From: Segetibacter sp. 3557_3
GTDB taxonomy: Bacteria; Bacteroidota; Bacteroidia; Chitinophagales; Chitinophagaceae
Direction of reading: 5' to 3'
DNA: 64,000 nt
Assembly (NCBI RefSeq): GCF_004354985.1
Contig: NZ_SMSK01000004.1
Location: 248,001-312,000, forward strand
This document shows positions 26,967 to 31,526 of this stretch, piece by piece (positions within the stretch are counted from its first letter, which is position 1; each line of letters begins with the position of its first letter). The notes beneath the pieces are model-generated. The model was not told where the DNA came from. It saw only the letters and a list, made by a program, of their open reading frames with translations, and did not search any database. The position numbers were made by a program, and so were the translations under genes.

Positions 26967-28193
26967 TTGAAAAATAAAAAGGCATTTATCCTGATACTTG
27001 TCATCAGTAGCCTTGTTGCATTTTTAAGCAGGTGTATGCGGGGCACTGAAACTGGCAATGATCCACGGGGTAAGATGTACATAGGTGCTGAAAGCTGTAA
27101 GCAATGCCATAAATCTGTTTACGATGCGTACCTAACAACTGCCCACTTCAATAGTACCCAAACAACATTACCGGGTAAAGTTTTAGGAAGTTTCACGCAG
27201 CCACAAAACACTTATGTGGTAGATAGCATAACTAACATCCGGATGGAGCATCGGGACAGTGGATTGTTCCAGGTATTATATGTAAACGGAAACCAACAGG
27301 AATTGCATCGCATGGATATAACCTTTGGGCCCAAGCATGCACAAACCTTTTTGTACTGGCAAGGTGACAGAGCATATGAGTTACCGATTTCGTATTATGC
27401 TGAAATCCAAAATTGGGCATCCAGTCCTGCATACCCTTCGGTGTTAAACTTCAACCGGCTAATCGGCGGTGGCTGCTTCGAGTGCCATAGTTCATATATC
27501 AAAAGCAAACTGGTTATGGGAAAGCGAGGGTATGAGGAGGCTTTAGACAAACGTTCCCTGATCAATGGCATTGATTGCGAAAGGTGCCATGGTCCTGCAG
27601 CCAACCACGTAAACTATCACCTCGCTTACCCGGAAGTTAAAGCGGCAAAATACATGGTAACTGCCGGATACTTAAGCAGGCAGCAGCAATTGGATGCGTG
27701 TGCAGTATGTCATTCAGGTAACGATATCAGGAAAGAGATATCCACTTTTCACTTTAAAATGGGTGATACACTGGCCAACTTTTTTCTACCTGCAGCAAGC
27801 CGGACAACAAATTCGGCAACGTTTGATGTTCATGGAAATCAGTACAACCTCCTGGCGCAGAGCCAGTGTTTTTTGAGCAGCAAGGTAATGACTTGTGCCA
27901 CGTGCCACGACCCACATACAAATGCCGGCACCAATTCTACGGAATACGTTGCAAAATGTATGGGTTGTCACACCAATCCGGATCATAGTGCACTGAAGAA
28001 CGATGCAGTTTCGGCAAATAACTTACAAACCAATTGCATCAATTGCCACATGCCTGCGCAGGAGTCCCGGGCCATAACGTTTCAAACAGCCGGTAGCAAA
28101 CTCCAATCCGCTTACACGTTACGCACGCATAGAATTGCCATTTACAACGGTAACAGTACTGCACCAGGGGCTAAAACCATCAAACATCGATGA
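26967..28193 (+). CDS. heptaheme c-type cytochrome within the glucan locus
   Basis: A 408-aa exported protein starting at TTG 26967. The leader LILVISSLVAFLSRC may be a lipoprotein signal (Cys23). Seven CxxCH heme-binding motifs are visible: CKQCH (44), CFECH (170), CERCH (204), CAVCH (245), CATCH (310), CMGCH (331) and CINCH (357). The spacing and the closing DPHTNA, CMGCHTNPDH and CHMPAQ segments fit the cytochrome c554-like multiheme family. Electron donor and acceptor are unknown. The stop overlaps the ATG of the GH5 gene (ATGA, 28190-28193), so the two are translationally coupled, which is unusual for a polysaccharide locus. Confidence 0.88.
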   Translation: MKNKKAFILILVISSLVAFLSRCMRGTETGNDPRGKMYIGAESCKQCHKSVYDAYLTTAHFNSTQTTLPGKVLGSFTQPQNTYVVDSITNIRMEHRDSGLFQVLYVNGNQQELHRMDITFGPKHAQTFLYWQGDRAYELPISYYAEIQNWASSPAYPSVLNFNRLIGGGCFECHSSYIKSKLVMGKRGYEEALDKRSLINGIDCERCHGPAANHVNYHLAYPEVKAAKYMVTAGYLSRQQQLDACAVCHSGNDIRKEISTFHFKMGDTLANFFLPAASRTTNSATFDVHGNQYNLLAQSQCFLSSKVMTCATCHDPHTNAGTNSTEYVAKCMGCHTNPDHSALKNDAVSANNLQTNCINCHMPAQESRAITFQTAGSKLQSAYTLRTHRIAIYNGNSTAPGAKTIKHR

Positions 28194-30054
28194 TAAATAA
28201 CTTGAAAAAATTCCGGTACCGGCTCTTGGCTTATCCCGCCCCGGTGAGCAGGTGTGTCGTTTCCGGCGCTCTTTTGTTTTGTTTGTTTTTTACGGAGCAG
28301 ATTATCGCGCAGGGATTTCTTAGAGCTGATGGAAAAAAGATCGTTAATGATGGAGGCGCGGTACTATTAAGGGGAATGGGACTAGGCGGCTGGATGTTGC
28401 AAGAGCCCTACATGTTGCGCTTCAACGGTATTGCCGGCAATCAACACGAGATCAGGGCAAAAATTGAAAGCCTGGCCGGAAAAGAAAATACAGCCACTTT
28501 CTATAAGGCCTGGCTTGCCAATCACTGCCGGAAACCGGATATTGATTCTATGGCAGCCTGGGGCTTCAACTCTGTACGATTACCCATGCACTATAACCTG
28601 TTTACTTTACCCATCGAACAAGAGCCCGTACCCGGCGCAGATACATGGCTACCGCAGGGCTTTGACATGGTAGACAGTCTCTTAAACTGGTGTAAGGCCA
28701 ATCGCATATACCTGATACTTGACCTGCATGCTGCTCCGGGTGGCCAGGGACGTGATGTTGCCATCTCGGATGGAGATACCTCAAAACCGTTCCTCTGGCA
28801 AAGCGAAGCAAACAGGCAGAAGACAATAGCACTGTGGCAACGGCTTGCGCGGCGATACGCCAACGAACAATGGATTGGTGGATACGATTTAATCAATGAA
28901 ACGAACTGGGGTTTTGCAGACCCAAAAGATAAAAATGGTTGTGCCGAAGAAGGAAATGAACCGCTGAGAAAGTTGTCGGTCGATATCACCGCAGCCATAA
29001 GAGCCGTTGACAAGAATCACCTGATCGTAGTAGAAGGGAATTGTTGGGGCAATAACTACAAAGGCATATTTCCTTTATGGGACAAGAACATGGTTGTTAG
29101 CTTTCATAAGTATTGGAACTATAATAACCAGGCTGCTGTACAAAACTTCATAAAAATAAGAGATGAACAGAATGTTCCGATCTGGTGTGGGGAAACCGGT
29201 GAGAACTCCAATGTTTGGTTCAGGGACGCAATTGAACTCTTTGAGAAAAACGATATTGGCTGGGCATGGTGGCCATTAAAAAATTAGGTTTTAATAACCC
29301 AATGGAGATTCAGCACAACCAAAATTACCAGGCGCTGCTGAACTATATGAGAGGACAGGGTCAGCAACCATCACGGGATGAGGCATTTCGTACATTAATG
29401 CAACTCACCGAAAACATCAAGGCGGAGAATACCCTCGTTCATAAAGATGTACTCGATGCCATGTTCCGGCAGGTTCAAACAACGGCTACCATTCCCTTTG
29501 CAAACCATGTTCTTAGTGGTAACGTTAACGTGTTCGCTACGGATTATGATCTTGGAAGAAATGGCGAAGCCTACCATGACAAGGACACTGCAGATTACCA
29601 TGTGTCAACAGGTAAAAATACACCCGGGAACAAAGGTAGAACCTATCGGAATGATGGAGTTGATATAGAAAGGTGCTCCGACCAAACAACCAATGGTTAC
29701 CAGGTAAGTTCATTTGAGGCAGGCGAGTGGATGCAGTACACTGTAATGGCGCCTTCTGCAGCGCAGTTTAAAGTAAGCATCAGGGTTCAGTCGCTGGTAA
29801 AAGGTACAGCGATAGGTTTAAGCGCAAACGGCAAGGCAGTTATCCCTGCTGTCGTTGTAGATAAGGGCAATAGTGATAGCTCCTGGAAAACGATATCGAT
29901 TGGCAATGTTCGCTTAAGTAAAGGTTTGAACAAGCTGAGGCTTGCGGCAGTTGCGGGTGAGGCCAGGCTGAACTATCTGCAGTTTAGTTCTAATGAAAGG
30001 GCGTCAAGTAAACGGCAACAAAAATCTATAGGCAGGACCTACGTTCGCAATTAG
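28190..30054 (+). pseudogene. GH5 glucanase with C-terminal CBM6-like module, frameshifted
   Basis: The first frame (28190-29287) encodes a signal peptide and a GH5 barrel: acid/base Glu237 in LINETNW and nucleophile Glu335 in WCGETGEN. It ends GWAWWPLKN-stop at 29285-29287. The -1 frame continues the expected GH5 end (KKLGFNNPMEIQHNQNYQAL), then a linker and a CBM6-like module (SFEAGEWMQYTV, LRLAAVAGEARLNYLQF) to 30054. Six A bases at 29278-29283 where seven are needed explain the break. A_AAA_AAT is also a slippery heptamer, so -1 frameshifting is possible. Both catalytic Glu precede the break. Expected role: endo- or exo-acting beta-glucanase at or beyond the periplasm. Confidence 0.8.
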
Positions 30055-30065
30055 AAAAACTTACT

Positions 30066-31526
30066 ATGAAGAAAATTACGCTTGGATTAATTATCCTGGT
30101 ACTCACCGGTTTTAGCAATAAAAACCGGGTTCCGCAAAGCCGGGCAAACAAATTTAAGCTGGATGGCAAAACAGCTACGGTCCACACCACCGATAAATCG
30201 GGCTTAAAACTTGCCTCAACGGGAACCCTGAATTTTGTTGACTTTGCCCAGCCCCTGGAAACACAGGTGTGTGTATTTGTTGATCCATCGCATCGTTTTC
30301 AAACTATGGTAGGTGTTGGTGGTGCCATAACCGATGCTTCGGCAGAAACCTTTGCCAAACTTCCAAAAAGTACACAGCAGGAATTTTTGAAAGCTTACTA
30401 CGATGCTAAAGATGGTATAGGTTATACCCTGGCGCGCACGAATATCAACAGCTGCGACTTTTCAACCGAAAGCTACACCTATGTAAAGGATGGCGACAAA
30501 GATTTGAAGACTTTTGATATACAACACGACAGGCAATTCAAAATACCCTTAATCAAACGGGCCATTGCTACGGCCGGTAATAAGCTAACCTTATACGTAA
30601 GTCCATGGAGTCCGCCCGCATGGATGAAGGATAATAATAGCCTGTTGCAGGGAGGCAAGTTGTTGCCACAATACAGGCAGTCGTGGGCGAATTACTATGT
30701 AAAGTTTATTCAATCTTATGAAAAGGAAGGCATGCCGGTATGGGGGCTATCTGTTCAAAATGAACCCATGGCAAAGCAACGCTGGGAGTCGTGCATATTT
30801 ACCGCCGAAGAAGAACGTGACTTTATAAAACAATACCTCGGACCAACTTTGCAACAGTCGGGACTGGCTGCAAAAAAACTGATCGCCTGGGATCATAACC
30901 GCGACCTGCTATACCATAGGGCAAGTACCATCCTGGATGATCCGGGTGCTGCCAAGTACGTATGGGGAATAGGTTATCATTGGTATGAAACCTGGACAGG
31001 TTCAGCCATGCAATTCGACAATCTTAAGAGAGTTGCAGAATCTTTCCCGACAAAAAACTTGTTCTTTACCGAAGGCTGTGTTGAAAATTTTAGTTTCAAC
31101 CGCATAGGCGATTGGGACCTCGGTGAAAGATATGGCCGGTCTATGATCAACGACTTCAACAGTGGAACCGTTGGATGGACCGACTGGAATATATTGCTTG
31201 ATGAGAAAGGCGGACCCAACCATAAAGGCAATTATTGCTTTGCCCCGATTATTGCCGACACGCGTGACGGAAGCCTGCACTATACAAACGCTTATTACTA
31301 TATCGGGCACTTTTCAAAATTTATTCGCCCGGGTGCAAGGCGCGTAAGCAGTTCTTCAAACAGGGATAAACTGCTGGTTGCCTCCTTCATAAATCCAGAT
31401 GGAAAACTGGCCGTGGTGGTGATGAATACCAGTGACGATAAGCTAGACTATAACCTGTGTATTGGCGGGAAAGCTGCAAGTACCACCAGTCTTCCACATT
31501 CCATCGCAACGATAATGATCAATTAA
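30066..31526 (+). CDS. GH30 family glycoside hydrolase (beta-glucanase-type)
   Basis: A 486-aa GH30 enzyme with signal peptide (KKITLGLIILVLTGFS). The (beta/alpha)8 barrel carries acid/base Glu233 (GLSVQNEP) and nucleophile Glu336 (LFFTEGC), with the conserved GVGGAITDASAET, TLARTNINSCDFS, LYVSPWSPPAWMK and WTDWNILLDEKGGPNH blocks. The small beta-sandwich domain surrounds the barrel at both ends. GH30 subgroups with this layout include beta-1,6-glucanases and glucosylceramidases; in a GH16-containing locus a beta-1,6-glucanase is the best guess. It follows the GH5 gene by 11 bp. Confidence 0.88.
   Translation: MKKITLGLIILVLTGFSNKNRVPQSRANKFKLDGKTATVHTTDKSGLKLASTGTLNFVDFAQPLETQVCVFVDPSHRFQTMVGVGGAITDASAETFAKLPKSTQQEFLKAYYDAKDGIGYTLARTNINSCDFSTESYTYVKDGDKDLKTFDIQHDRQFKIPLIKRAIATAGNKLTLYVSPWSPPAWMKDNNSLLQGGKLLPQYRQSWANYYVKFIQSYEKEGMPVWGLSVQNEPMAKQRWESCIFTAEEERDFIKQYLGPTLQQSGLAAKKLIAWDHNRDLLYHRASTILDDPGAAKYVWGIGYHWYETWTGSAMQFDNLKRVAESFPTKNLFFTEGCVENFSFNRIGDWDLGERYGRSMINDFNSGTVGWTDWNILLDEKGGPNHKGNYCFAPIIADTRDGSLHYTNAYYYIGHFSKFIRPGARRVSSSSNRDKLLVASFINPDGKLAVVVMNTSDDKLDYNLCIGGKAASTTSLPHSIATIMIN

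Follow-up and report, generated by a model that had tools for sequence, protein, structure and literature searches.

We asked whether the one-base frame change that splits a GH5-CBM6 gene of Segetibacter sp. 3557_3 reflects a programmed -1 frameshift or a plain lesion in a reading frame. The gene lies within the window, that is the whole stretch of 64,000 nucleotides that was analysed; this gene and its direct neighbours on both sides are on its forward strand, and positions given without a contig or locus name refer to it. The frame break itself was confirmed. The GH5 open reading frame (28190-29287, 365 amino acids) ends with GWAWWPLKN followed by a TAG stop (29285-29287), and the CBM6 half carries on one base back, in the -1 frame (29281-30054, 257 amino acids), where it begins with KLGFNNPMEI and remains open to the stop at 30054. 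The codons at the break are TTA (29276-29278), AAA (29279-29281), AAT (29282-29284) and TAG. They contain a run of six A (29278-29283) and an in-frame A_AAA_AAT heptamer (29278-29284), which is the site of the one-base frame change.

Pfam assigned residues 104-364 of the first frame to GH5 (PF00150, 103.9 bits for a cut-off of 23.5) and detected CBM_6 (PF03422, 51.3 bits for a cut-off of 28.9) in the -1 half, in which CBM_35_2 also exceeded its own cut-off with 48.9 bits. No NCBIfam match was obtained for the GH5 protein, whose N-terminus resembles a signal peptide by inspection. The coding score of the -1 half was 0.200 per codon in its own frame, the median of the long open reading frames being 0.199, and -0.61 and -0.88 in the remaining two frames. 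As the tail scores as coding in the -1 frame only, the two halves form one coding region with a single-base shift. The original prediction was thus correct in placing the end of the GH5 frame at LKN-stop with a -1 continuation into a CBM6-like module, and in describing the six A and the slippery heptamer. It had also placed both catalytic glutamates before the break, and E237 and E335 are indeed upstream of it, in columns that are invariant in 44 homologs; their catalytic role is one that we assume from knowledge of the GH5 family. A separate start of the CBM6 half from an internal ATG (29266 or 29303) was judged unlikely by inspection, because both codons are embedded in conserved stretches of the protein and the resulting polypeptide would carry no signal peptide. 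A homology search of the genome returned one match only, with no close second copy of the GH5-CBM6 gene; elsewhere in the genome there are two other PF00150 matches, partial and weak, and the genome holds one CBM6.

The GH5-CBM6 gene looks to be part of a polysaccharide-utilisation locus, in a genome that its nearest named relatives suggest to be Chitinophagaceae-like. Between 19917 and 35945 we observed, in a row, SusC and SusD (by inspection), the GH5-CBM6 gene, two GH30 genes, a weak GH2-like match and a Calx-beta-GH16 protein (Pfam), an arrangement that probably corresponds to a beta-glucan utilisation locus. One GH30 gene (30066-31526), with an open frame, lies directly downstream of the split gene. 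Upstream, a multihaem cytochrome c gene (26967-28193) overlaps the GH5 start by 4 nucleotides; to our knowledge, a cytochrome is unusual in a glycan locus. A relative of this cytochrome is present in 19 of 109 homolog loci. Among the six relatives with listed positions, five start just past the GH5-CBM6 gene, and that of locus L035 (2638-3816) alone sits before it.

We then compared the break with the corresponding position in homologs. These came from a search of 99 genomes (the present one included), 29 of which gave a match, and from the best 80 of 436 matches. Among the 109 loci from other genomes, 98 matched the GH5 half at E 1e-20, and removal of one exact duplicate left 97 distinct homologs. 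A frame change at the site was found in none of the 97. The residue that follows the site is Lys in 94 homologs and Arg in the other 3, and the frame is open through the site in 96. The exception (L082, from a metagenome bin) has an in-frame stop five codons upstream of the last shared Lys, after which the frame is unchanged through the CBM6 region. A further metagenome-bin homolog (L074) carries an ambiguous base and a frame change in its CBM region, at a position other than that of the GH5-CBM6 break. The longest A-run at the site varied from 2 to 8 among the homologs, and an in-frame A_AAA_AAN was present in 13 of the 97. The original prediction had named relatives with an intact frame and without the slippery A-run as one of the observations that would refute it. 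The intact frame was found, but the A-run is lacking only in part of the relatives, since 32 of the 97 have 7-8 A and all of these stay in frame.

A family-wide search of 294 genomes of the same family, overlapping in part with the search of 99 genomes, gave 89 other matches at E 1e-60, most of which were compared by open-frame length only. None of the 89 had an open frame as short as that of the present gene (370 amino acids in this search), the shortest being 410. At an identity of at least 56%, 55 of 56 matches had at least 503 amino acids, the exception (G171) having 424; stops inside the match occurred in two of the 89 (G305 and G175). Conserved recoding was rejected from the 97 homologs together with this family-wide search, and as far as seen in these sequences the break appears confined to one genome. 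It has the features of a singleton frameshift, being found in one genome with both halves matching one intact homolog. With the closest intact homolog sharing no more than about 73% identity, a comparison at the strain level was impossible.

Signals for recoding were sought around the heptamer. In 330 open reading frames of at least 200 amino acids, which add up to 469 kb and come from 689 kb of the genome sequence, we counted 43 in-frame copies of A_AAA_AAT and 186 of A_AAA_AAN, so that the heptamer by itself carries little weight. The shares of the three codons within their families are 0.16 for TTA, 0.62 for AAA and 0.47 for AAT, and no tandem rare codons were found at the site by the codon usage of this genome. 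The GGTGG located five nucleotides upstream of the heptamer (29268-29272) belongs to Trp-Trp codons. The original prediction had proposed to look for a pseudoknot after position 29287. Stems and pseudoknots were searched as simple stems with no loop penalties, and compared with 500 shuffles and with the 97 intact homologs. The first 25 shuffles were favourable, with none as good, but over 500 shuffles the result was borderline, and relatives behaved alike. The best pseudoknot starting 0-12 nucleotides downstream was equalled in 28 of the 500 shuffles and in 26 of the 97 intact homologs. At 5-9 nucleotides downstream, which the available part of one report gives as the usual stimulator spacing (PMC8211752), neither a stem-loop nor a pseudoknot stood out, the pseudoknot being equalled in 69 shuffles and 27 homologs and the hairpin in 395 shuffles and 85 homologs. 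The hairpin at 0-12 nucleotides was equalled in 363 shuffles. The best stem within 30 nucleotides was equalled in 25 shuffles and 12 homologs, and the strongest stem starts 21-24 nucleotides past the heptamer. Single-strand folding gave z values from -1.79 to +0.54 depending on the window chosen. A 61-nucleotide sub-window was beaten or matched by only 9 of 200 shuffles; since one 63-nucleotide and two 101-nucleotide windows were unremarkable (87, 107 and 141 of 200 shuffles as good), this result was read as an effect of choice. Rfam gave no hit for 28000-30200 at E values up to 1, and a promoter and terminator scan of 27500-30500 gave the same counts as shuffled sequence. The downstream structure is borderline when compared with shuffles and ordinary when compared with intact relatives that need no shift.

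The original prediction had further suggested that the short GH5 product could be active. To place the stop within the fold, we modelled the intact homolog L035, whose GH5 half shares 73% identity, from an alignment that included 44 of 60 suitable loci; the mean pLDDT was 93. Mapped by alignment, the equivalent of the last Lys is residue 326 of the fragment in this model, past a strand at 319-322, which from its order we read as barrel strand 8, and ahead of a helix at 340-349 (helix 8). Beyond this helix the model has further helices and then the CBM6 sandwich. The -1 half would accordingly comprise barrel helix 8, more helices and the CBM6 module, and a complete eight-fold barrel was not found in the short product as mapped onto the model. 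In addition, homologs that apparently have no CBM6 (L039, L086 and six at 36-40% identity) extend 64-82 residues beyond the site. Because the stop falls before barrel helix 8 and these homologs run past the site, an active short GH5 seems unlikely; although it contains both catalytic-type Glu, the barrel of this product would be incomplete.

The condition of the tail bears on the age of the lesion. All 14 invariant and all 22 near-invariant tail columns are kept; each of the 44 homologs, when left out in turn, loses no column in 36 cases, one in 7 and two in 1. The retention of the conserved columns indicates that the tail was under selection until very recently. Its divergence was compared with that of 69 out of 88 homologs, those whose tails measure 215-260 amino acids: the mean residual of -2.8 points (homolog median +0.3, 5-95% range -4.4 to 3.8) is slightly low and inside the homolog spread. 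No second disabling change is present in the 771-nucleotide tail. With 4.0% of single changes leading to stops, and one frameshift indel assumed for every 20 substitutions, the probability that a tail free of constraint is still intact at 5% divergence would be 0.03, so that the lesion, if genuine, must be young. A tail without decay points either to a very recent lesion or to a base-calling or assembly error, two cases that the data at hand do not separate.

A scan for frame breaks extended over 689 kb of this assembly, with homologs covering 258 kb. The assembly consists of 35 contigs, with 100% completeness and 0.25% contamination. The scan gave six clusters: the GH5 gene, one at 27.8 kb on contig C13, and four on contig C30 at 193.9, 24.0, 60.8 and 66.6 kb. 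The last two were repeat-like and unconvincing as genes, and were dropped. The three other broken genes in the covered sequence include two single-base shifts, namely an ABC permease of MacB/FtsX type by inspection (C30, about 193.9 kb; locus L123), with a longest run of 4 bases near the junction, and an MrpA-like antiporter subunit (C13, about 27.8 kb; locus L203), so named from our reading of its sequence, with a longest run of 5 bases near the junction. The latter is the only close copy in the genome. The third is a short paralog (locus L115, at about 23.6-24.1 kb of C30), which is interrupted by an inserted stretch containing T-runs and has its other copy at 14881-15255 of C30 (locus L114); this break looks like real gene decay. 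A related genome (G003) gave one break in 264 kb, which on checking looks like a true frame break. The homology-covered sequence contains 349 A/T runs of at least six, of which the GH5 run alone was seen to coincide with a break, one more T-run sitting in the inserted stretch at about 24.0 kb of C30. With 1 run of 349 at a break, homopolymer errors are not abundant in the assembly. The survey of breaks neither proves nor excludes a sequencing error.

Taken together, these results favour a non-programmed one-base frame break in a single genome, due to an error or to a very recent mutation, with a probability of about 0.91; between these two origins the odds are roughly equal. The break would be a single-base contraction in the A-run that encodes a conserved Lys-Lys after barrel strand 8, produced either by very recent polymerase slippage, leaving a young pseudogene, or by faulty base calling or assembly. 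The slippery heptamer would then be a by-product of the A-rich Lys-Lys codon pair minus one base. Should the lesion be genuine, translation would yield mainly a barrel that lacks helix 8 and CBM6 and is probably unfolded, perhaps accompanied by trace full-length protein through leaky -1 slippage. The original prediction had offered a deletion, a sequencing error and programmed -1 frameshifting; the first two are supported. An error of sequencing or assembly, the real gene being intact and producing the full-length protein, has close to an even chance. It would explain the undecayed tail and the absence of the break from all 97 homologs, and the one close MrpA-like gene of the assembly also carries a single-base break. 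Moreover, the available part of a survey of 1106 genomes expects unclustered, BLASTp-validated frame breaks to be sequencing errors and not genuine indels (PMC3711429). However, homopolymer calling looks good overall, the completeness and contamination values of the assembly are favourable, and the break in the short paralog has the appearance of real decay. A genuine and very recent deletion of one base by replication slippage, giving a young pseudogene or a strain polymorphism, is a tentative possibility that we place somewhat short of even. The runs of 7-8 A found at this codon pair in relatives make it a natural slippage target, and four broken genes (GH5 included) in 258 kb of this genome compare with one in 264 kb of G003. 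Against it, the tail is free of a second disabling change, which allows only a young deletion, and the genome has no other close homolog of the gene.

The third option fared less well. Programmed frameshifting is unsupported, since the break occurs in none of the 97 homologs, no stimulator exceeds those of intact relatives, and the heptamer is common in the genome. A lineage-specific -1 frameshift at A_AAA_AAT, which would set the ratio of GH5 alone to GH5-CBM6 or throttle the full-length enzyme as in fucA1 of Saccharolobus solfataricus, is very unlikely. It would account for the undecayed tail, as functional read-through would preserve it too, and few shuffles equal the best pseudoknot, the best stem within 30 nucleotides or the folding of the 61-nucleotide sub-window; the in-frame heptamer is also identical to that of fucA1 as given in the available text. 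Yet no homolog shares the break and only 13 of 97 share the heptamer class, intact homologs do as well in pseudoknot and stem, comparisons at 5-9 nucleotides are unexceptional, the best stem is distant from the heptamer, tandem rare codons are lacking, and the short product would be without helix 8. In E. coli, according to the available part of one study, 39 of 64 heptamers are frameshift-prone without a stimulator, at ratios of 2.1-10 over a background of about 0.05%; in that part, A_AA.A_AA.U is absent from the 18 under-represented motifs that shift above 0.10% without a stimulator, and from three further motifs considered (PMC4066793). It is the fucA1 precedent that keeps lineage-specific recoding alive, since absence of the break from relatives of at most 73% identity does not dispose of it. 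We give little credence to the idea that the six-A allele may be fixed and used in this lineage, with -1 slippage throttling or regulating full-length GH5-CBM6 and the undecayed tail as its signature; if true, the heptamer of archaeal fucA1 would also control a bacterial glycosidase. Slippage during transcription, or reversible phase variation, at the A-run appears the least probable of all. Phase-variable tracts are known in other systems, and the break does lie in a homopolymer of A. Six A are nevertheless a short run when about nine or more A/T are expected for transcriptional slippage, and in the available part of a survey of 108 genomes a large proportion of them show evident selection against slippage at run length nine (PMC1088944). 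For annotation, the preferred reading of a non-programmed break means that the locus should be read as a frame-broken GH5-CBM6 gene and not as a short GH5 beside an orphan CBM6 protein.

Finally, we compared the gene with known systems. Among the papers searched, none combined all four of programmed frameshifting, carbohydrate binding, glycoside hydrolases and Bacteroid- taxa. By sequence (2.9e-32), the solved structure that best matches the GH5 half is the GH5_22 exo-beta-xylosidase (9ku5, 9kua), which is also the best fold match of the L035 model, but with 20-21% identity in the fold alignment. CtXyl5A (2y8k, 5la0-5la2, 5g56) has the same order of a GH5 barrel followed by a CBM6; the tail matches 2y8k at 3.1e-15 and the L035 model matches by fold. 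It differs in having an intact gene, in being an arabinoxylanase by entry title and in sharing 17-18% identity over the fold alignment. As described in the available parts of two reports (PMC8211752, PMC8037382), fucA1, which encodes an alpha-L-fucosidase, is likewise a glycosidase gene interrupted at A-AAA-AAT by a -1 shift, with intact Sulfolobales relatives differing by one base in the A stretch. In contrast to the present gene, known from the sequence of one strain and showing no stimulator beyond those of intact relatives, fucA1 shows rare CAC codons in tandem, a putative stem-loop, an interruption shared by two strains and a full-length product that has been measured, at about 5% in E. 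coli and at about 10% in vitro. No feature was found to distinguish the GH5-CBM6 gene from the singletons of the GeneTack survey (PMC3711429), which in its available part are likewise frame breaks of a single genome whose two halves match one intact protein elsewhere.
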